Origin: Erysipelothrix aquatica
Lineage (GTDB): Bacteria > Bacillota_I > Bacilli_A > Erysipelotrichales > Erysipelotrichaceae
Direction: 5' to 3'
Assembly: GCF_009828775.2 (NCBI RefSeq)
Contig: NZ_WTSY02000004.1
Location: 1 to 64,000 of the forward strand
Length of the DNA stretch: 64,000 nt
In this document: piece after piece, positions 16,304-29,934 of the stretch
Layout of the letters: each line of letters begins with the position of its first letter
Numbering within the stretch: position 1 is the stretch's first letter
The notes under the pieces: generated by a model
Told to the model about the DNA's origin: nothing
Databases searched by the model: none
Seen by the model: the letters and a program-made list of their open reading frames with translations, nothing else
Made by a program: the position numbers and the translations under genes

Positions 16304-17347
16304 TTACTGATATTCATTGAAAATCAAGAACGATGGAAACTTTGGATCAAATGCGGTTGATTTGGGCGGCATAATCGCGCGCTTACTCGAGACAAATAAG
16401 ACCTCCTCTTTGGAGATTGGTGCAAGCTCTAGCTGTACCGCTTGAATGTTGTGCTTGCATTTATCTTTGCATGATTTGGAACTTATATAGTACTCTAACT
16501 GGCTTGTATCATAAATTCCGAAAGCTTGTGACAGTATCTGCGTATTAAGTCTGTAGACATCATTATTCCAAAAATCATCCGATTCTAGATCAATCAATTT
16601 AACATTAACACTTTCAGTACCACGGCTCACTCGTACCACCCCTTTTGTCAATGGGGCGCTTGCATCAGATACTTCAAACTGATTTTTAATGAATGTCATT
16701 GCTTTAGCAAACAATGCATCATCGACTTGCGGAATCATGCGATCAATGCTATTAATTTCGATATCATCAATACTCATTAAGCAACTAAAGATTGTGCCTT
16801 TACGACGCCACAAAGAACTTGTATAGAGACGGTGATGACCATCACCTACTATAAGTGTCTCAATAACACTGAGTCGTTGCATAATGAGTTCGGCGTTGGC
16901 TTCATTGAAAATATGAACTGCCATTGTATCCATTTGAATTGTCTCATGGTCGTATGTATCGACAATATTTTTCAATTGTAAATCCGTTGGACTCATCAAA
17001 AATACCGGTGCCGTTTCTGCATTATATGCTTTAAGATTGCTGAGCATTCCCTGAATGATATCTGGCAACACAAGTTCATGGGTAATCAAATTACCCTCTG
17101 TATAATCACTCATGTCTACATTACAGATGACGCAATACTTCTCATCTCTTTCAACAATATATACAACATTCTCATAGGCTACAATGGCTTGCTCGTTTAG
17201 TTTGTCTTTCTCTTCTTGATTGAGAAAGCGGGTCTTATCATCAAAGTTAATGCAGTCGTCGGTTATCTTTGCAAGATTGATAAAGTCAGGTCCATAAATA
17301 TGCCCACTTACATTCAAGTGGCTTTTTTTTAGAGGCGAAAGTTTCAT
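16304..17347 (-). CDS. DUF1015 family protein, possible small-molecule kinase
   Basis: A 347-residue cytoplasmic protein matching DUF1015: central VGDGHHRLYTS (about 195), which recalls the ParB-fold kinase signature, and C-terminal MPPKSTAFDPKFPS. DUF1015 genes often lie near phosphoserine biosynthesis genes, and ParB-like SerK/SbnI are free-serine kinases; a serine kinase role here is inference only. It starts where the upstream nucleotidyltransferase/PLP gene ends (4-bp overlap), so the two are translationally coupled and probably work in one pathway. Confidence 0.75.
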   Translation of the reverse strand: MKLSPLKKSHLNVSGHIYGPDFINLAKITDDCINFDDKTRFLNQEEKDKLNEQAIVAYENVVYIVERDEKYCVICNVDMSDYTEGNLITHELVLPDIIQGMLSNLKAYNAETAPVFLMSPTDLQLKNIVDTYDHETIQMDTMAVHIFNEANAELIMQRLSVIETLIVGDGHHRLYTSSLWRRKGTIFSCLMSIDDIEINSIDRMIPQVDDALFAKAMTFIKNQFEVSDASAPLTKGVVRVSRGTESVNVKLIDLESDDFWNNDVYRLNTQILSQAFGIYDTSQLEYYISSKSCKDKCKHNIQAVQLELAPISKEEVLFVSSKRAIMPPKSTAFDPKFPSFLIFNEYQ

Positions 17348-19167
17348 GATTTGCGCTCCATGATGCTGCGTAGTCCATCCACAAGAATTTTATTTTCTTC
17401 AGGACGTTTTACTGCAATTCGAATAAACTCTTTCTTAAAGCCAGCTTTTGTTGATAAGTCTTTAATAAAAACATTATGCAGATCAAGGAGTTCTTCGGTA
17501 ACACTTTGTGCTGTATGATCACCCAAAATTTCAATCATAATGTAGTTTGCCTGAGATGGGTAGACTTTGAGGTTCGGAATTGTATTCAACTGATCTACAT
17601 AGTCGCGACGAACAGCCCTAAACTGAACCATTGCCTGTTTGAAGTCTTTCTTATACTTATCCACAATCTGCATGTAGTATTCTCCAAAGGAGTTGATGTT
17701 CCAAATGGACACATCTTTTTTAATATGGGCAATCATTGATGTATCTGCCGTTGCTAGGATGCCAAGACGGAATCCAGGTACGCCATACGATTTCGAAATA
17801 CTTTTAACTAAGTACAAATTTGGATATGTATCTAAAATATCTGATTTTAAGAGAGTACCGGCATCATTGCTTTCTGCAAAATCGATGAATGACTCATCGA
17901 GGATGAGTCGAATATTTTTTTCCTGACACCATTTGACTAGTTTTATAACGTTCTCGTGTGTAATGTAGTTTCCTGAAGGATTATCCGGATTAATCAATAT
18001 CAGTGAATCAAGGTGCTTATCTTCATAGAAATCGACCAGTGTTGCTGTATCGTATTGATAATCAACAACTGAGCTATCAAAAGGTATGACCTGCATATGA
18101 CCACAGCGATTTGGATATTCTTCGAAAGTTGGTGTGATAACCCCAATATTGCCTTCTAGAGTTTCCATTAAAGATTTAATAAGTTCCGCAGCACCATTTC
18201 CGATTACAATTTGTTCCGGACGAATTCCAAAATGTTTGGCTGCTAATAATGTATTAACGCCCATACCCGATGGATAATCACGTACCAGACGATCAAAATT
18301 TGCTTTTACTTCATCCAGCAGACGCTCATTCGGGTAGAAAGGATTCACGAGATAACAGAAGTCTATCAATTGTGGATAACGCCAGTATCCGCCATAACGT
18401 TTTTGCATTAAATCCAGTTTCTGACGTGCTGTTTGTGCGAACATAACCTGCGCGATATCAAGATCTTGAACATCATCAATTTCATACCATGTGATGCCAT
18501 CATTAAGGACAGCCTTAAATGAAACATCGGATAATTCAACCACAAACTTCAGCACGTTTTCGTAGTATTCATTAACGCCAGATGCCTTCATGTAAGCTTC
18601 CATAAACGGGACATACACGTTTTTCGAAAATTCTTTACTGAACTTATAAATATTGATTGTTTTGTAGTAAGTATCAGTATGTTGATAATTGAATGCTTGC
18701 TTGCCGATAAAATCAGTAATTGTTTTTTCATCATCAAGTGTTACAACGGTTCCATCCATCCATGCTTCGTATTTTGATACAAGAGCACTATTTGGATTTG
18801 AATCATTAAGAATGACGTCAAGCAATGCTTCATCAAAGATTAAGTCTGATTCGAGAAGAATCGTGTCCGATTCCAGTAACGCCTCATGTGCTAAGTAAAG
18901 CGAATAAATATTATTCGTTTGATCATAGATTTCATTTGTGATGAATTGGATCGGTGTTTTTATCTCAAATTCACGAATGAATGATTCTAAGACATCATTT
19001 TGATATCCGTCCACGATAATGATTCGCTCCAAATCTTTTGTATCCAATTGACGAAGTACGCGTTCAATCATTGATACGCCATTGACTTCAACCATACATT
19101 TTGGATGAACCTCAGTAAGATTCCCTAAACGGGACCCAATTCCAGCTGCGAGTATTAATGCTTGCAT
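17344..19167 (-). CDS. Fused nucleotidyltransferase / PLP-dependent aminotransferase-fold enzyme
   Basis: About 607 residues. Domain 1 (1-245) is an NTP transferase with LILAAGIGSRLG and PKCMVEVNG, closest to LicC/PntC-type cytidylyltransferases. Domain 2 (250-607) is a fold-I PLP enzyme of HisC/CobD style with INPDNPSGNY, LDESFIDF and the PLP-lysine segment KSISKSYGVPGFRLG. The ATG at 19167 has GGAGG just upstream; an upstream in-frame extension lacks these signs. The architecture resembles PntC (phosphonate cytidylyltransferase plus transaminase), but no PEP mutase is nearby. With the DUF1015 partner it may phosphorylate, activate and decarboxylate or transaminate a small amino compound, for example phosphoserine to CDP-ethanolamine. 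This is inference. Confidence 0.8.
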   Translation of the reverse strand: MQALILAAGIGSRLGNLTEVHPKCMVEVNGVSMIERVLRQLDTKDLERIIIVDGYQNDVLESFIREFEIKTPIQFITNEIYDQTNNIYSLYLAHEALLESDTILLESDLIFDEALLDVILNDSNPNSALVSKYEAWMDGTVVTLDDEKTITDFIGKQAFNYQHTDTYYKTINIYKFSKEFSKNVYVPFMEAYMKASGVNEYYENVLKFVVELSDVSFKAVLNDGITWYEIDDVQDLDIAQVMFAQTARQKLDLMQKRYGGYWRYPQLIDFCYLVNPFYPNERLLDEVKANFDRLVRDYPSGMGVNTLLAAKHFGIRPEQIVIGNGAAELIKSLMETLEGNIGVITPTFEEYPNRCGHMQVIPFDSSVVDYQYDTATLVDFYEDKHLDSLILINPDNPSGNYITHENVIKLVKWCQEKNIRLILDESFIDFAESNDAGTLLKSDILDTYPNLYLVKSISKSYGVPGFRLGILATADTSMIAHIKKDVSIWNINSFGEYYMQIVDKYKKDFKQAMVQFRAVRRDYVDQLNTIPNLKVYPSQANYIMIEILGDHTAQSVTEELLDLHNVFIKDLSTKAGFKKEFIRIAVKRPEENKILVDGLRSIMERKS

Positions 19168-19462
19168 AATTGCCTCCATGCAAAGATTTGTATCTTTGTT
19201 CAAATATACTCTAATTCTAACATAATTGAACATTACATGGAAACCCTTGTTTCTTTACACCGCTATTTCCTTCCGCAAGTACGTATTTTTTCCCTCTGCA
19301 TGTGTGACTTTCATGACATCTGTTCTATTATTACATTTCTTCACAAAAAACAGTCATTTTGCCATGACTTCAAAATAGCAATGCTCTCAAGTTTTGTAAC
19401 AATTGTGTCGTGCTGCAATTAATCCAAACGTCGTATTGTTTTATCGCTCATCGAGATGGGAT

Positions 19463-19497: not shown

Positions 19498-21792
19498 TTA
19501 TTGTTTTATTTTCTTATTCCGGAGTGAAAGTAAAATCAATCCAAGCCCCGCTACTACACCACCGGCTAAGATTGCTGAGTTGCTCGCGTACCCTGTCGCA
19601 GGTAAGACAGCTTCCTTCAAATCCCATTTCGCATACAGTGTCATGGATTTTTGTACGGTATCGGTATCAAAGTTCCACAGTGTTTCAAACGTTGGACTGG
19701 TGTACCATCCTGCGAATGTATAGCCACTTCGCGTTGGATCGTTTGGTTTCACTACTTTTGCACCGACTTCTAAATTGTGTTGGGGTGCGACGGCAGTTCC
19801 GCCATTACTCTCAAATGTCACATCATACGTGTTTACAATTGGATTTTGATTCCACTTCGCATACAGTGTCATGGAATTTTGTACGGTATCAACATCAAAG
19901 TTCCACAGTGTTTCAAACGTTGGACTGGTGTACCATCCTGCGAATGTATAGCCACTTCGCGTTGGATCGTTTGGTTTCACTACTTGAGCACCGGCTTCTA
20001 AATTGTGTTGGGGTGCGACGGCAGTTCCGCCATTGCTCTCAAATGTCACATCATACGTGTTTACAATTGGATTTTGACTCCACTTCGCATACAGTGTCAT
20101 GGAATTTTGTACGGTATCAGCATCAAAGTTCCACAGTGTTTCAAACGTTGGGCTGGTGTACCATCCTGCGAATGTATAGCCACTTCGCGTTGGATCGTTT
20201 GGTTTCACTACTTGAGCACCGGCTTCTAAATCGTGTTGGGGTGCGACGGCAGTTCCACCATTGCTTTCGAATGTCACGTCGTAAGTATCAACTGCAAGTT
20301 CTTCCCATTTTGCGTGCAAGGTTATCGTCTTTTCAACATAATCTTGACCAAAGTTCCATGGTGTCGTGTATGTATCATCTGTGAACCATCCTTTAAAAAT
20401 TGCATTGGATTTCATGGGGTCAGTTGGCTTCGTAATTTGGGCTCCGAGGTACACTTGAAGAATTGGTGCCACAGCGTCACCCCCATGACTGTCAAAATAA
20501 ACATCGTACTTAGCATCAAATGCTGGCAGATACGTTGGTGTAATAACATTCGAATCGCGGTTAATGTCAAAGGCATTATAGGAATACGAGTGTAAGACAA
20601 GACCTTGATCCATTGCATAGAAGTCAGTATCCATGTACGATCCAATATCTTCTATATCAGCACGATCGTATGCTTCGTAGAGTTCAGAATTTTTTGCGAG
20701 TTGTTCCGCTACGATATCCATCTTCGCAACATAAAAGTCAATACGTTGAATACTCCCGACGATTGAATCCGAAGAATCATAATCATAGAAGAATGTATAG
20801 CGTTCATCATCGTAGTCCTTGTCGATATCATCACGATAGACACGGTCAGCTTCAAATGTACGACCATCCTCTAAGGTCGCAATCACTTTAAAAGGAATTG
20901 TCGTAACACCAGAATCGCCGAGATGGTCATCAACAAAGTCTGCAAGATGATCCAAATCAATACCGACAGTTTTTTGTGTGGCATTTGCTTTCTGGAATGT
21001 ATTGCCTTCTTTTCGAATTACGGATGGTATATCTTCGTCTTGTAGTGTCATTGCATAGTACACACTATCATTCAATGTTTCAAGGTGGACAGGGCGTCTA
21101 ATGTGACGCGTGACCATCTCTGCTTCAACGTCAAAATTAAGATTGCGGTTTAACCCGACCATCCAGTTTAAGTTTACTAAAAGCGCATCAAACCCATCCA
21201 AAGGAACACTGACACGAGGTCCACTATACTGCGTAGACATTGAGGTTAGCTCCGACACGAAGACGGACTGATATTCATTGAACTTCGCGTGTGCGAGTGT
21301 TTTTGCTGTCGCAGGATCCGAATCACCCCAATATGTATCCCCCAATTGTTCATAGGTTCCTGTATCCTTTGAGTACTCACCTGCAAAAATTTGGATTTCA
21401 CCAGAGTTATCTGTAAATCCTTGTGGTAAAATCGTTAGATTTTGAATTTTCTTAGGTGTTCCTGATTCCCCCATGGTACCTAAATCAATCACAGCTGTTA
21501 ACTCAGCTAAATTTTCAAAGTTCTCAATTCCCTTATAATCAAAAACATAATATGTCCTTTGATCTGTCGCTGAATAGTAACTTGGACCCACGGTGTGGAT
21601 CATTTTGACATAGTCATCGATTGCTTGATCATCAATCAGTAAATCTTCTTCTTGATTATCACGTGCTGTTGCATAAACTAAATCTAAAATATCGTTCGAG
21701 TATGTTGAACTTCCTGGTCGATTCTCAGCATTCACCGGTAATGCCAAAACATACATTAAAACGACTAAACTTATGCTTAGTATTTTTTTCAT
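19498..21792 (-). CDS. LPXTG cell-wall-anchored surface protein with Listeria-Bacteroides repeats
   Basis: 764 residues. Signal peptide 1-22 (cleavage near PVNA-EN). Residues 25-420 form a novel acidic N-terminal region not matched to a known domain. Four Listeria-Bacteroides (InlB B-like) repeats of about 76 residues start near 427, 503, 579 and 655, each with YDVxF-S-GG, GxxFxGW-T and LxAKW. Sorting signal LPATG near 730 is followed by a hydrophobic segment and KNKKIKQ-like basic tail, so sortase anchors it to peptidoglycan. The last three repeats are almost identical in DNA. Likely an adhesin or host-interaction protein; ligand unknown. Confidence 0.9.
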   Translation of the reverse strand: MKKILSISLVVLMYVLALPVNAENRPGSSTYSNDILDLVYATARDNQEEDLLIDDQAIDDYVKMIHTVGPSYYSATDQRTYYVFDYKGIENFENLAELTAVIDLGTMGESGTPKKIQNLTILPQGFTDNSGEIQIFAGEYSKDTGTYEQLGDTYWGDSDPATAKTLAHAKFNEYQSVFVSELTSMSTQYSGPRVSVPLDGFDALLVNLNWMVGLNRNLNFDVEAEMVTRHIRRPVHLETLNDSVYYAMTLQDEDIPSVIRKEGNTFQKANATQKTVGIDLDHLADFVDDHLGDSGVTTIPFKVIATLEDGRTFEADRVYRDDIDKDYDDERYTFFYDYDSSDSIVGSIQRIDFYVAKMDIVAEQLAKNSELYEAYDRADIEDIGSYMDTDFYAMDQGLVLHSYSYNAFDINRDSNVITPTYLPAFDAKYDVYFDSHGGDAVAPILQVYLGAQITKPTDPMKSNAIFKGWFTDDTYTTPWNFGQDYVEKTITLHAKWEELAVDTYDVTFESNGGTAVAPQHDLEAGAQVVKPNDPTRSGYTFAGWYTSPTFETLWNFDADTVQNSMTLYAKWSQNPIVNTYDVTFESNGGTAVAPQHNLEAGAQVVKPNDPTRSGYTFAGWYTSPTFETLWNFDVDTVQNSMTLYAKWNQNPIVNTYDVTFESNGGTAVAPQHNLEVGAKVVKPNDPTRSGYTFAGWYTSPTFETLWNFDTDTVQKSMTLYAKWDLKEAVLPATGYASNSAILAGGVVAGLGLILLSLRNKKIKQ
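19628..20311. repeat. Three 228-bp coding tandem repeats
   Basis: Units start near 19628, 19856 and 20084 and are nearly identical; a fourth, diverged unit lies at about 20312-20530. Each encodes one 76-residue surface repeat. Such homogeneous repeats are prone to copy-number change. Confidence 0.9.
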
Positions 21793-22013: not shown

Positions 22014-22190
22014 TTATTTAATTTGATAACGTTTATTGTAGCGATAGAGGACAAATAAGAGGAGTATCAATCCAATCATCATCATACCCAGACTTTGAAT
22101 ACCAATTGTCTTTTGGCCCAATATCACACATGCAACACCTATGATAAACAAGATAATTTGTAAGCTATATGATAATACTGTTTTCATCAT
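22014..22190 (-). CDS. Small membrane protein (DUF6903-like)
   Basis: About 58 residues from the ATG at 22190, with two hydrophobic helices split by GQKTIGIQSLGMMMIG and ending in LYRYNKRYQIK. It resembles the short DUF6903-type proteins that accompany sugar-utilisation operons. It overlaps the end of the GH112 gene by 26 bp, so it is cotranslated with it. Function unknown; it could assist the membrane transporter encoded upstream. Confidence 0.6.
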   Translation of the reverse strand: MMKTVLSYSLQIILFIIGVACVILGQKTIGIQSLGMMMIGLILLLFVLYRYNKRYQIK

Positions 22191-24345
22191 AGGACTCCCA
22201 TCGTAATTCTTCACTTCTTAAAATCATACTATGAGGATTTCCATTGCCATCATAAACTGTTGTACGTTGCTCATCGGCGGTATTATTGATGATCGCAACT
22301 TTCCCAATCGCGGGGTACACATTCACTTCGCAATTGAAGTTTGTCGAGAACCAACGGTGTAGTTCTGTTTCTTTTCCCGCAGCATAGAATAAACTGCGGT
22401 AGAGAATTCGTGCATTTTCTGGCGAGTAAGGAAGACCGGATAAATAGACACCGCGACCGCGACCGTATGGGTTCGCCGCAATCGTTACATTCTGATCTTG
22501 GATATCGATGACTTCAGTCTCTTTATGGGTTGCATAAATATTCGTTACAGGCTCACCACTTTCGAATGGTCGCGTTTTATCTTCCGTAATGAAGTGTTTA
22601 TCCATGGCAGTATAGAAATATTTATTTGATGAGAGTGTTAGACCACGTTCCCGCTCAACCCCTAAGATATCTGCAAGTTGGAAGAATTTTCCGGACTTAT
22701 CGTATGCACTGGGTTCACCCACACCGACGAATCCATGACCTTCATGAACCCATTGGCGGATGATGCTGACCACTTCTGGATCATTCCAATTGCTTCCACC
22801 ACTCATCGCGGTTCCTGCTTGACCGGCATTAATCACGACATCAATATTCGCTAAGTCCCCTTGTTTCACATCGTCAAAGTTTATAAACTTCACATCGACA
22901 CTCATCCCACTTAAAGCATCCATCATGCCATAGAAAGAGTATGTTTGTTTGTACCATAACTCATGCGCAACCATAAAGGCTTGCCAGCTTCGTAAACGAC
23001 CCCATGAGTTTAAAATTCCAACAGTTAAATTGGCATGCGGCTTCACATCTTCAATGTTTTCAATTATATCTCTAAATTGATCGGCAATCCGTTCGACATA
23101 ATCGACAAATTTAGGGAATTGGTAAGCAAGACTTGGATAACCACCATAGCCAATACGATTCACAGGTTTACGCATGATTGCACGGCGTGCTCGTAACCAA
23201 TTATCTGATGCTTCAATTACAGGGTCATTTCCCTCGCGGAAGGTATCAGGGAAGAAGTAAGGCAGGAAACGACCCTCAGTGTATTTAACATGTGGAATAT
23301 CTGCAATAACACGAAGGCTCGCACCGCCTCCGACAGAACCAACAACGGCATCCAAACCAATTGAAGCGAAATGCTCACCATACGGTTCGGTACCAATCCA
23401 GTTGTCACCTAAGAACATCATCGCTTCTTTACCATGGGCATGAACCATATCGACCAGTTCTTTTGCACGACTTGCGACAAAGCGTTGTTGGAAATCAATG
23501 TAATCAAGGTAACGTTGTGTTGGTTCGTTAAAGGTTGAGTTGTACGTTCCTGCTTGGATGAAGTCTTCGGCAAGCAAACGATAACCGTGTTCTATTTCAA
23601 ATGCTTTCAAAGCTGCGGGTGACACACTAGCACCATACCCAAACCAATCGACAAACTTATCTTTTTTCATATCGTTAAAAAATAACGTGAAATGGTAGAA
23701 GAAGGTGGTGAATCGGACCACATCTGTTTTCGGATTGTTTTCTAACCATGTCTGCAATGTTGCTTTCATGAATTCCCATGATTTGGGACCACGGGCATCA
23801 AACGGTATGTCTTTCGGAACATCACCCCAATTATTCGTTAAGTGGTTGTACATCTGTGTTGGATCCCACATCACAAAGGCTAAGAAGTTGACCGTGTATT
23901 CGTGGAAAGGTTGCACATTATTAATTGTGACAGATTGTGTTGCCACATCATAAGTCCATGCTTCCACAGGTAGTAATTCGCCCGTTGTTCGGTTATGTAC
24001 TTGCCACCATTCTTTGGGATCTTCCAGAGTATTGGGTTGAATTTGTTCGGTAAAGAACCCTTTTAAAATTTCAATTGTCACGGACGTTGATGTCGCAATG
24101 GTGCGTTCACTCATAACAAAAATTTGTTGGGTTTCATCCAAGTGTTGTAAGGCAAACTCATTATAGTTTCGAGCTACAAAATACGTTGTATAGATTTTTG
24201 CATCCAAATCTTTCACACGTTCTTCTAACTTTGTCCCATCACTATCACGGATTGCATCAGCCCCCCATCGTCGCATCAATTCTTTCGTTTCATCATAAAA
24301 CTCATGTTCGCCAGGTAATGTAAGTCGGCCTTTTGTATCGCTCAT
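22165..24345 (-). CDS. 1,3-beta-galactosyl-N-acetylhexosamine phosphorylase, GH112 (intact copy)
   Basis: 726 residues, full length for GH112 (LnpA/GnpA). It phosphorolyses galacto-N-biose or lacto-N-biose I, from mucin glycans or milk oligosaccharides, into galactose-1-phosphate and GalNAc or GlcNAc inside the cell. The TIM-barrel region includes MMFLGDNWIGTEPYGEHF with the likely general-acid Asp, and a C-terminal sandwich ends in FNCEVNVYPAIGKVA. Nearly identical to the disrupted copy at 27738-29918. Last enzyme gene of the transporter operon; TTAGGAG ribosome binding site. GalT, GalE and NahK partners are not in the window. Confidence 0.92.
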   Translation of the reverse strand: MSDTKGRLTLPGEHEFYDETKELMRRWGADAIRDSDGTKLEERVKDLDAKIYTTYFVARNYNEFALQHLDETQQIFVMSERTIATSTSVTIEILKGFFTEQIQPNTLEDPKEWWQVHNRTTGELLPVEAWTYDVATQSVTINNVQPFHEYTVNFLAFVMWDPTQMYNHLTNNWGDVPKDIPFDARGPKSWEFMKATLQTWLENNPKTDVVRFTTFFYHFTLFFNDMKKDKFVDWFGYGASVSPAALKAFEIEHGYRLLAEDFIQAGTYNSTFNEPTQRYLDYIDFQQRFVASRAKELVDMVHAHGKEAMMFLGDNWIGTEPYGEHFASIGLDAVVGSVGGGASLRVIADIPHVKYTEGRFLPYFFPDTFREGNDPVIEASDNWLRARRAIMRKPVNRIGYGGYPSLAYQFPKFVDYVERIADQFRDIIENIEDVKPHANLTVGILNSWGRLRSWQAFMVAHELWYKQTYSFYGMMDALSGMSVDVKFINFDDVKQGDLANIDVVINAGQAGTAMSGGSNWNDPEVVSIIRQWVHEGHGFVGVGEPSAYDKSGKFFQLADILGVERERGLTLSSNKYFYTAMDKHFITEDKTRPFESGEPVTNIYATHKETEVIDIQDQNVTIAANPYGRGRGVYLSGLPYSPENARILYRSLFYAAGKETELHRWFSTNFNCEVNVYPAIGKVAIINNTADEQRTTVYDGNGNPHSMILRSEELRWESYDENSIII

Positions 24346-24361
24346 AATAATCTCCTAATCT
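22230..24361. repeat. Long direct repeat, copy 1 (GH112 gene)
   Basis: About 2.1 kb nearly identical to 27803-29934, collinear without indels at an offset of 5573 bp. The match includes the ribosome binding site (CTCCTAATCT on the + strand) and fades over the last few codons of the gene. Confidence 0.9.
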
Positions 24362-27737: not shown

Positions 27738-29918
27738 TTAAAGTTGAATTGAATTTTCCACAATGGATTCCCAACGGAGTTCTTCACTTCGAAGAATCAT
27801 CGTATGAGGATTTCCATTGCCATCATAAACTGTTGTACGTTGCGCATCGGCGGTATTATTGATGATCGCAACTTTCCCAATCGCGGGGTACACATTCACT
27901 TCGCAATTGAAGTTTGTCGAGAACCAACGGTGTAGTTCTGTTTCTTTTCCCGCCGCATAGAATAAACTGCGGTAGAGAATTCGTGCATTTTCTGGCGAGT
28001 AAGGAAGACCGGATAAATAGACACCGCGACCGCGACCGTACGGGTTCGCCGCAATCGTTACATTCTGATCTTGGATATCGATGACTTCAGTCTCTTTATG
28101 GGTTGCATAAATATTCGTTACAGGCTCACCACTTTCGAATGGTCGCGTTTTATCTTCCGTAATGAAGTGTTTATCCATGGCAGTATAGAAATATTTATTT
28201 GATGAGAGTGTTAGACCACGTTCCCGCTCAACCCCTAAGATATCTGCAAGTTGGAAGAATTTTCCGGACTTATCGTATGCACTGGGTTCACCCACACCGA
28301 CGAATCCATGACCTTCATGAACCCATTGGCGGATGATGCTGACCACTTCTGGATCATTCCAATTGCTTCCACCACTCATCGCGGTTCCTGCTTGACCGGC
28401 ATTAATCACGACATCAATATCTGCTAAGGCCCCTTGTTTCACATCGTCAAAGTTTATAAACTTCACATCGACACTCATCCCACTTAAAGCATCCATCATG
28501 CCATAGAAAGAGTATGTTTGTTTGTACCATAACTCATGCGCAACCATAAAGGCTTGCCAGGTTCGTAAACGACCCCATGAGTTTAAAATTCCAACGGTTA
28601 AATTGGCATGTGGTTTCACATCTTCAATGTTTTCAATTATATCTCTAAATTGATCGGCAATCCGTTCGACATAATCGACAAATTTAGGGAATTGGTATGC
28701 AAGACTTGGATAACCACCATAGCCTATACGATTCACAGGTTGACGCATGATTGCACGGCGTGCTCGTAACCAATTATCTGATGCTTCAATTACAGGGTCA
28801 TTTCCTTCACGGAAGGTATCTGGGAAGAAGTAAGGCAGGAAACGACCCTCAGTGTATTTAACATGTGGAATATCTGCAATAACACGAAGGCTCGCACCGC
28901 CTCCGACAGAACCAACAACGGCATCCAAACCAATTGAAGCGAAATGCTCACCATACGGTTCGGTACCAATCCAGTTGTCACCTAAGAACATCATCGCTTC
29001 TTTACCATGGGCATGAACCATATCGACCAGTTCTTTTGCACGACTTGCGACAAAGCGTTGTTGGAAATCAATGTAATCAAGGTAACGTTGTGTTGGTTCG
29101 TTAAAGGTTGAGTTGTACGTTCCTGCTTGGATGAAGTCTTCGGCAAGCAAACGATAACCGTGTTCTATTTCAAATGCTTTCAAAGCTGCGGGTGACACAC
29201 TAGCACCATACCCAAACCAATCGACAAACTTATCTTTTTTCATATCGTTAAAAAATAACGTGAAATGGTAGAAGAAGGTGGTGAATCGGACCACATCTGT
29301 TTTCGGATTGTTTTCTAACCATGTCTGCAATGTTGCTTTCATGAATTCCCATGATTTGGGACCACGGGCATCAAACGGTATGTCTTTCGGAACATCACCC
29401 CAATTATTCGTTAAGTGGTTGTACATCTGTGTTGGATCCCACATCACAAAGGCTAAGAAGTTGACCGTGTATTCGTGGAAAGGTTGCACATTATTAATTG
29501 TGACGGATTGTGTTGCCACATCATAAGTCCATGCTTCCACAGGTAGTAATTCACCCGTTGTTCGGTTATGTACTTGTCACCATTCTTTGGGATCTTCCAG
29601 AGTATTGGGTTGAATTTGTTCGGTAAAGAACCCTTTTAAAATTTCAATTGTCACGGACGTTGATGTCGCAATGGTGCGTTCACTCATAACAAAAATTTGT
29701 TGGGTTTCATCCAAGTGTTGTAAGGCAAACTCATTATAGTTTCGAGCTACAAAATACGTTGTATAGATTTTTGCATCCAAATCTTTCACACGTTCTTCTA
29801 ACTTTGTCCCATCACTATCACGGATTGCATCAGCCCCCCATCGTCGCATCAATTCTTTCGTTTCATCATAAAACTCATGTTCGCCAGGTAATGTAAGTCG
29901 GCCTTTTGTATCGCTCAT
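27738..29918 (-). pseudogene. GH112 phosphorylase, second copy with nonsense codon 114
   Basis: Same length (726 codons) as the intact copy at 22165-24345 and nearly identical to it. Codon 114, TGG (Trp) in the other copy, is TGA here (29577-29579), giving a 113-residue product, with a possible internal restart at 29540 yielding 600 residues that lack the N-terminal domain. The last codons also differ (WESIVENSIQL against WESYDENSIII). First gene of the operon, directly behind the regulated promoter. Either a recent pseudogene or, less likely, a readthrough case. Confidence 0.85.
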
Positions 29919-29934
29919 AATAAACTCCTAATCT
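27803..29934. repeat. Long direct repeat, copy 2 (GH112 gene)
   Basis: Partner of 22230-24361. Recombination between the two would delete, or in sister exchange duplicate, the three transporter genes together with one phosphorylase copy. Confidence 0.9.

Follow-up and report, generated by a model that had tools for sequence, protein, structure and literature searches.

The nearest described protein of similar design is Tde1415, the PntC-AEPT of Treponema denticola (6pd1/6pd2). It consists of about 620 amino acids, with an N-terminal LicC-like cytidylyltransferase followed by a fold-type I PLP enzyme, which in this case is a class V transaminase for 2-aminoethylphosphonate (AEP). Two glutamates of its cytidylyltransferase, Glu104 and Glu196, are placed to contact the amine of AEP, and LicC has aspartate at both positions (PMC6697681). 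A second related system is the Lic-1 (LicABCD) phosphocholine pathway. There, choline is imported and phosphorylated by the kinase LicA, the resulting phosphoalcohol is activated with CMP, and LicD carries out the transfer.

Two decarboxylases are also relevant. SMUL_1544 of Sulfurospirillum multivorans (6oux) is a stand-alone enzyme that reportedly, according to 2019 work in FEBS Letters, decarboxylates serine phosphate. It governs the synthesis of norcobamides (cited in PMC6461909), which carry an ethanolamine linker instead of aminopropanol (PMC6759758). Cj1436, a capsule enzyme of Campylobacter jejuni HS:2, decarboxylates serine phosphate as well (PMC12409886). Its likeness to the protein described below comes from the literature only, and lies in the conversion of phosphoserine to phosphoethanolamine for a surface glycan. 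Unlike that protein, Cj1436 has no fused cytidylyltransferase, and an amide bond links its product to glucuronic acid.

The gene pair

The locus was found in a stretch of 64,000 nucleotides (the window) from a 2.15-Mb Erysipelothrix genome that is 99.67% complete (G000, contig C4). Two genes on the minus strand overlap by 4 bp, as the initial annotation had noted. The shared ATGA (17344..17347, minus strand) contains the stop codon of one and the start codon of the other, so that translational coupling is likely.

The first gene (17344..19167, minus strand) encodes a fusion protein of 607 amino acids. Its 5' end had been placed at 19167, and this start is correct, because a GGAGG ribosome-binding site (19173..19177, minus strand) precedes the ATG and nearly all homologues in an alignment open at the same methionine. 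An open reading frame of 629 amino acids was rejected on these grounds as an annotation artefact. In the numbering of that longer frame, residues 25-179 match nucleotidyltransferase families (PF12804/PF00483) and residues 332-619 match a PLP enzyme family (PF00155), which bears out the proposed fusion of two enzymes. The nucleotidyltransferase domain occupies 18439..19167 and the PLP domain 17356..18381, both on the minus strand.

The second gene (16304..17347, minus strand) encodes a short DUF1015 protein of 347 amino acids, a candidate free-serine kinase. The family and the GDGHHR motif had both been recognized before. PF06245 matches residues 52-280 with 61 bits against a Pfam cut-off of 25.8, and the motif lies at residues 168-173. 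Short DUF1015 proteins form a divergent subfamily with 11-19% identity to canonical members, and DGHHR is invariant among six aligned members of the subfamily.

The surroundings of the pair in the window have features of their own. Upstream, 19498-21792 encodes a surface protein of 764 amino acids with an LPATG-type sorting signal and near-identical C-terminal repeats (92-95% at the DNA level). Further on, an ABC sugar transporter lies between two 98.5% identical genes for a 1,3-beta-galactosyl-HexNAc phosphorylase-like protein (22181-24361 and 27754-29934). An in-frame stop interrupts the second of these, which reads KEW* against KEWW in the first.

A proposed route from serine to CDP-ethanolamine

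We consider it probable that the pair converts L-serine to CDP-ethanolamine by a compact route, for use in surface decoration. Homology and gene context are observed; from them we infer all of the reactions, the identity of the substrate, the order of the steps and the acceptor. First, the short DUF1015 protein would phosphorylate free L-serine to O-phospho-L-serine, with ATP, ADP or PPi as donor. The C-terminal PLP domain would then decarboxylate phosphoserine to phosphoethanolamine. Next, the N-terminal domain would use CTP to attach CMP to phosphoethanolamine, with CDP-ethanolamine as the product. Finally, an enzyme of the LicD type, or elsewhere of the Glyphos_transf type, would place phosphoethanolamine on a surface glycan or glycolipid. 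The predicted role of the fusion protein is thus that of a phosphoserine decarboxylase / CTP:phosphoethanolamine cytidylyltransferase. Whether two adjacent genes encode the full route, with serine kinase (the short DUF1015 protein), phosphoserine decarboxylase and cytidylyltransferase, we regard as evenly balanced.

The initial annotation had proposed the same starting point and product. Its chain is borne out for the most part, since the PLP domain is nearest to an ethanolamine-linker decarboxylase and genome context links DUF1015 to phosphoserine metabolism. The order it gave, with CMP activation before decarboxylation, has to be revised in favour of decarboxylating phosphoserine first, which is likelier.

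Distribution of the pair

The pair was surveyed in 245 genomes of the order and in a draw of 392 genomes from the phylum. Short and canonical DUF1015 proteins were separated by their PF06245 scores (25 to 65 bits versus about 140 to 400). The fusion is present in 13 of the 245 genomes of the order. Across both surveys, a full-length short DUF1015 gene adjoins the fusion in 11 of 11 genomes. Five of these are Erysipelothrix: the window genome, its near twin E. anatis (fusion protein 93% identical), G132, G157 and G255. One belongs to another genus of Erysipelotrichaceae (G105). The other five, all from the phylum draw, are mycoplasmas, with genomes of 0.8-0.9 Mb in which TGA is read as Trp. The fusion and the short DUF1015 protein form a real unit, and their adjacency is far beyond chance.

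The fusion gene comes first in Erysipelothrix, and the DUF1015 gene comes first in the mycoplasmas and in G105. In a tree of the fusion proteins, G105 nests with the mycoplasmas in a joint clade with support of 100/100; the pair has therefore apparently been passed from one lineage to another as a cassette.

Homologues of the fusion itself are known from Erysipelotrichaceae, Clostridia, Coriobacteriaceae, Bacteroides/Prevotella and one Campylobacteraceae MAG. It is spread across gut Bacillota, Bacteroidota and Coriobacteriaceae, and is also present on phage-like contigs. Four such contigs from IMG/VR (L100-L103, 22-322 kb) encode it, and in two of these it has LicD-like neighbours. The short DUF1015 protein was absent from the viral contigs searched. 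A candidate counter-example, G201 (L094), in which a DUF1015 gene adjoins a LicC-choline/ethanolamine kinase fusion, was set aside: the DUF1015 gene is truncated at the contig end, and unrelated degenerate sequence lies between the two genes.

A literature search that took in part of the subscription papers returned nothing on the function of DUF1015 or on the fusion. A fused decarboxylase-cytidylyltransferase with a dedicated kinase candidate thus appears to be undescribed in the literature searched, and its component pieces are known.

DUF1015 and the supply of phosphoserine

Evidence that links DUF1015 to serine comes from its neighbours. SerA is encoded within about 1.5 kb of 16 of 38 DGHHR-type DUF1015 loci, compared with 0 of 18 loci of the DGNHS type. 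In several genomes of family f9, a canonical DUF1015 protein is extended, and its gene comes after those for SerA and a class V aminotransferase. Seven loci from that family and related genomes (L111-L115, L117, L118) encode DUF1015 proteins of about 875 amino acids, mostly in that position, and the extended protein of L111 proved to be fused to glutamate dehydrogenase. Such an array looks like an operon for serine catabolism or synthesis. Acting together with SerA, an aminotransferase and glutamate dehydrogenase, a serine kinase would convert serine to 3-phosphoglycerate, a route that has been proposed for archaeal SerK (PMC5120207). DUF1015 resembles SerK (TK0378) in the proposed reaction, and its relatives have SerA and aminotransferase neighbours, as SerK does in Desulfurococcales; a profile search detected no sequence link between DUF1015 and the solved structures of SerK. 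Alternatively, the SerA-linked proteins may serve serine synthesis, with DUF1015 replacing the phosphatase. The serine-operon context would fit a phosphatase or another role as well.

A second line of evidence is the distribution of SerC. Nine of the 11 pair-bearing genomes lack this enzyme (all five mycoplasmas, G105, G132, G157 and G255), compared with 3 of the 24 in which the fusion stands alone (Fisher p=1.4e-4, a value that is overstated because there are few independent lineages). With phosphoserine as the substrate, those nine genomes would therefore have to phosphorylate serine. Where SerC makes phosphoserine, the fusion mostly stands without a short DUF1015 partner. SerC is present in the window genome and in E. 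anatis, where a serine kinase is therefore not indispensable.

It is unlikely, though less so than the rivals considered below, that DUF1015 is instead a regulator, a phosphatase or a companion that uses CDP-ethanolamine, with phosphoserine coming from elsewhere. The presence of SerC in the window genome would suit such a role. So would the lack of a detected link to SerK: a profile search of PDB sequences with DUF1015 returned no matches, SerK included, and the AlphaFold model, built from few sequences, is poor (pLDDT 45.6). Against it, the mycoplasmas, G105 and the three pair-bearing Erysipelothrix that lack SerC would need a source of phosphoserine, and DUF1015 of the DGHHR type goes together with SerA/SerC and glutamate dehydrogenase. 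A serine kinase is the reading we prefer.

The PLP domain

Among solved structures, the PLP domain matches SMUL_1544 best (6oux, 182 bits, E=1.8e-52), followed by 3ftb (102 bits) and CobD (1lc5, 95 bits). The AlphaFold model obtained for the fusion is good (pLDDT 82.7) and gave the same result with Foldseek, in which SMUL_1544 ranked above CobD and HisC, and first except for PntC fusions that match both domains. Of 68 PLP-domain residues invariant in the family, 45 are common to SMUL_1544; 32 of these are also found in CobD and 13 in SMUL_1544 only, while 4 are found in CobD only. The key residues are the PLP lysine K481, Asp446 and Arg605 (within 17356..18381, minus strand). By its closest homology and its conserved PLP residues the domain is of the SMUL_1544 type, and activity on phosphoserine is predicted. 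It differs from the stand-alone norcobamide enzyme in being fused to a cytidylyltransferase and in occurring in surface-polymer contexts.

Phosphothreonine as a substrate is also compatible with the sequence. In that case DUF1015 would phosphorylate threonine, the PLP domain would be a CobD-like threonine-phosphate decarboxylase, and the product would be CDP-1-aminopropan-2-ol. CobD is among the best solved relatives, and the best NCBIfam model for the domain is that of threonine-phosphate decarboxylase CobD (TIGR01140). However, the score of 163.2 bits is far below the equivalog cut-off of 290.55, SMUL_1544 is much closer than CobD, and the context of DUF1015 is that of SerA/SerC. We judge threonine to be an improbable substrate.

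Aminotransferases have a similar class I/II fold, and the capsule of C. jejuni offers a precedent in Cj1437, an aminotransferase that makes serinol phosphate (PMC12409886). A PLP domain of this kind would lead to CDP-serinol or a similar product. HisC models do score (TIGR01141, 146.6 bits), again below the equivalog cut-off (276.55), but the decarboxylases SMUL_1544 and CobD rank above most aminotransferases in both sequence and fold searches. An aminotransferase would also leave the DUF1015 partner unexplained, and we give it a slim chance. The phosphoserine decarboxylase therefore stays the preferred assignment.

The nucleotidyltransferase domain

The best solved relatives of the nucleotidyltransferase domain are PntC (Tde1415, 6pd1) and LicC (1jyk). 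Residues E128 and E225 (in 629-aa ORF numbering, within 18439..19167, minus strand) align with E104 and E196 of Tde-PntC, and both positions are glutamate in 39 of 39 fusion homologues. The aspartates of LicC (D105/D192) are thus replaced by glutamate in the window fusion. Phosphoethanolamine is the phosphate-ester counterpart of AEP. Retention of the glutamate pair makes a small primary amine, for instance phosphoethanolamine, a likelier substrate than phosphocholine. The proposed route shares with Lic-1 a phosphoalcohol, CMP activation and transfer by LicD, and departs from it at the source of the alcohol, where serine would be phosphorylated and decarboxylated.

These residues also bear on the order of the two reactions of the fusion. 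Phosphoserine might be activated first, giving CDP-serine, which would then be decarboxylated to CDP-ethanolamine. The net product would be unchanged, and the order of domains within the protein agrees with such a sequence of events. Still, SMUL_1544-type enzymes and other relatives of the PLP domain use free phosphoamino acids, and the nucleotidyltransferase pocket matches that of PntC, in which both glutamates hold a primary amine. For these reasons decarboxylation probably precedes CMP activation, and there is little likelihood of the reverse.

The initial annotation had also pointed to a layout like that of PntC proteins. This is true of the nucleotidyltransferase, and Tde1415 and the window fusion have both amine-contact glutamates in common. 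The PLP partner differs, being class V in Tde1415 and a CobD/SMUL_1544-like enzyme of class I/II here, so that the layouts are only superficially alike.

Absence of a phosphonate pathway

The PEP mutase profile TIGR02320 found no match in the window genome or in the ten other pair-bearing genomes, so that DUF1015 and the fusion co-occur without pepM, as the initial annotation had suggested for this locus. Phosphonate tailoring, in which the fusion would activate AEP like PntC, its nearest nucleotidyltransferase relative and one that prefers AEP, is very improbable given this absence, a PLP domain that is CobD-like rather than a class V AEP transaminase, and the situation in five other fusion-bearing genomes, where pepM lies on a different contig or far from the fusion. 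A phosphonate pathway was rejected for lack of pepM; in the window genome phosphonate tailoring counts as refuted, barring a pepM gene that the assembly lacks.

Downstream transferases

Transferases that use CDP-linked donors adjoin the fusion in several lineages. The initial annotation had suggested a look for CDP-alcohol phosphotransferases near homologues; the transferases present there are of the LicD (PF04991) and Glyphos_transf (PF04464) types. LicD abuts the fusion in Butyrivibrio, Coriobacteriaceae, Prevotella, Campylobacteraceae and three mycoplasmas, in which it directly follows the pair. There is exactly one LicD gene in each of the five mycoplasma genomes and none in G105, which also has the pair. 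The window genome has two, both on other contigs, and no transferase or acceptor gene adjoins the pair at the Erysipelothrix loci. In Mycoplasma fermentans, the LicD-family protein mf1 transfers phosphoethanolamine from CDP-ethanolamine to glucosyl-diacylglycerol in vitro (PMC11982090).

Glyphos_transf abuts the fusion in Bacteroides cutis and in a Clostridia MAG, the latter by a local profile. In two Erysipelotrichaceae it adjoins the fusion gene as part of a YidC fusion. The genes concerned (L088:3731-5842 and L092:6251-8950) combine a YidC-like domain (60KD_IMP) with a CDP-glycerol-type glycerophosphotransferase, an unusual architecture.

A CDP-alcohol phosphotransferase was rejected as partner in the window genome. 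The only PF01066 gene lies on another contig, and a lipid head-group route through PF01066 is not indicated.

Other genes also follow the fusion. An opine-dehydrogenase-like gene (PF02317) is found directly after it in L005, L007, L016-L018, L090, L091 and L093, where the short DUF1015 gene is absent, and an OCD-family gene (PF02423) in L009, L010 and L092, from lineages without short DUF1015. The position of these genes suggests that the amine may be modified further. We speculate that such an enzyme could N-carboxyalkylate it, for instance with a carboxyethyl group.

Biological significance

If the proposed route is correct, it would provide a second way to CDP-ethanolamine beside the Kennedy route of ethanolamine kinase and cytidylyltransferase, and it would give DUF1015, a widespread domain of unknown function, a role in its DGHHR-type members. 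Mycoplasmas and other organisms that lack SerC would then be able to decorate surface glycolipids and glycans with phosphoethanolamine without a supply of ethanolamine. Certain mycoplasmas and Erysipelothrix would bear serine-derived phosphoethanolamine on their surface glycolipids or glycans, a decoration of the zwitterionic class known for its interaction with host immunity.
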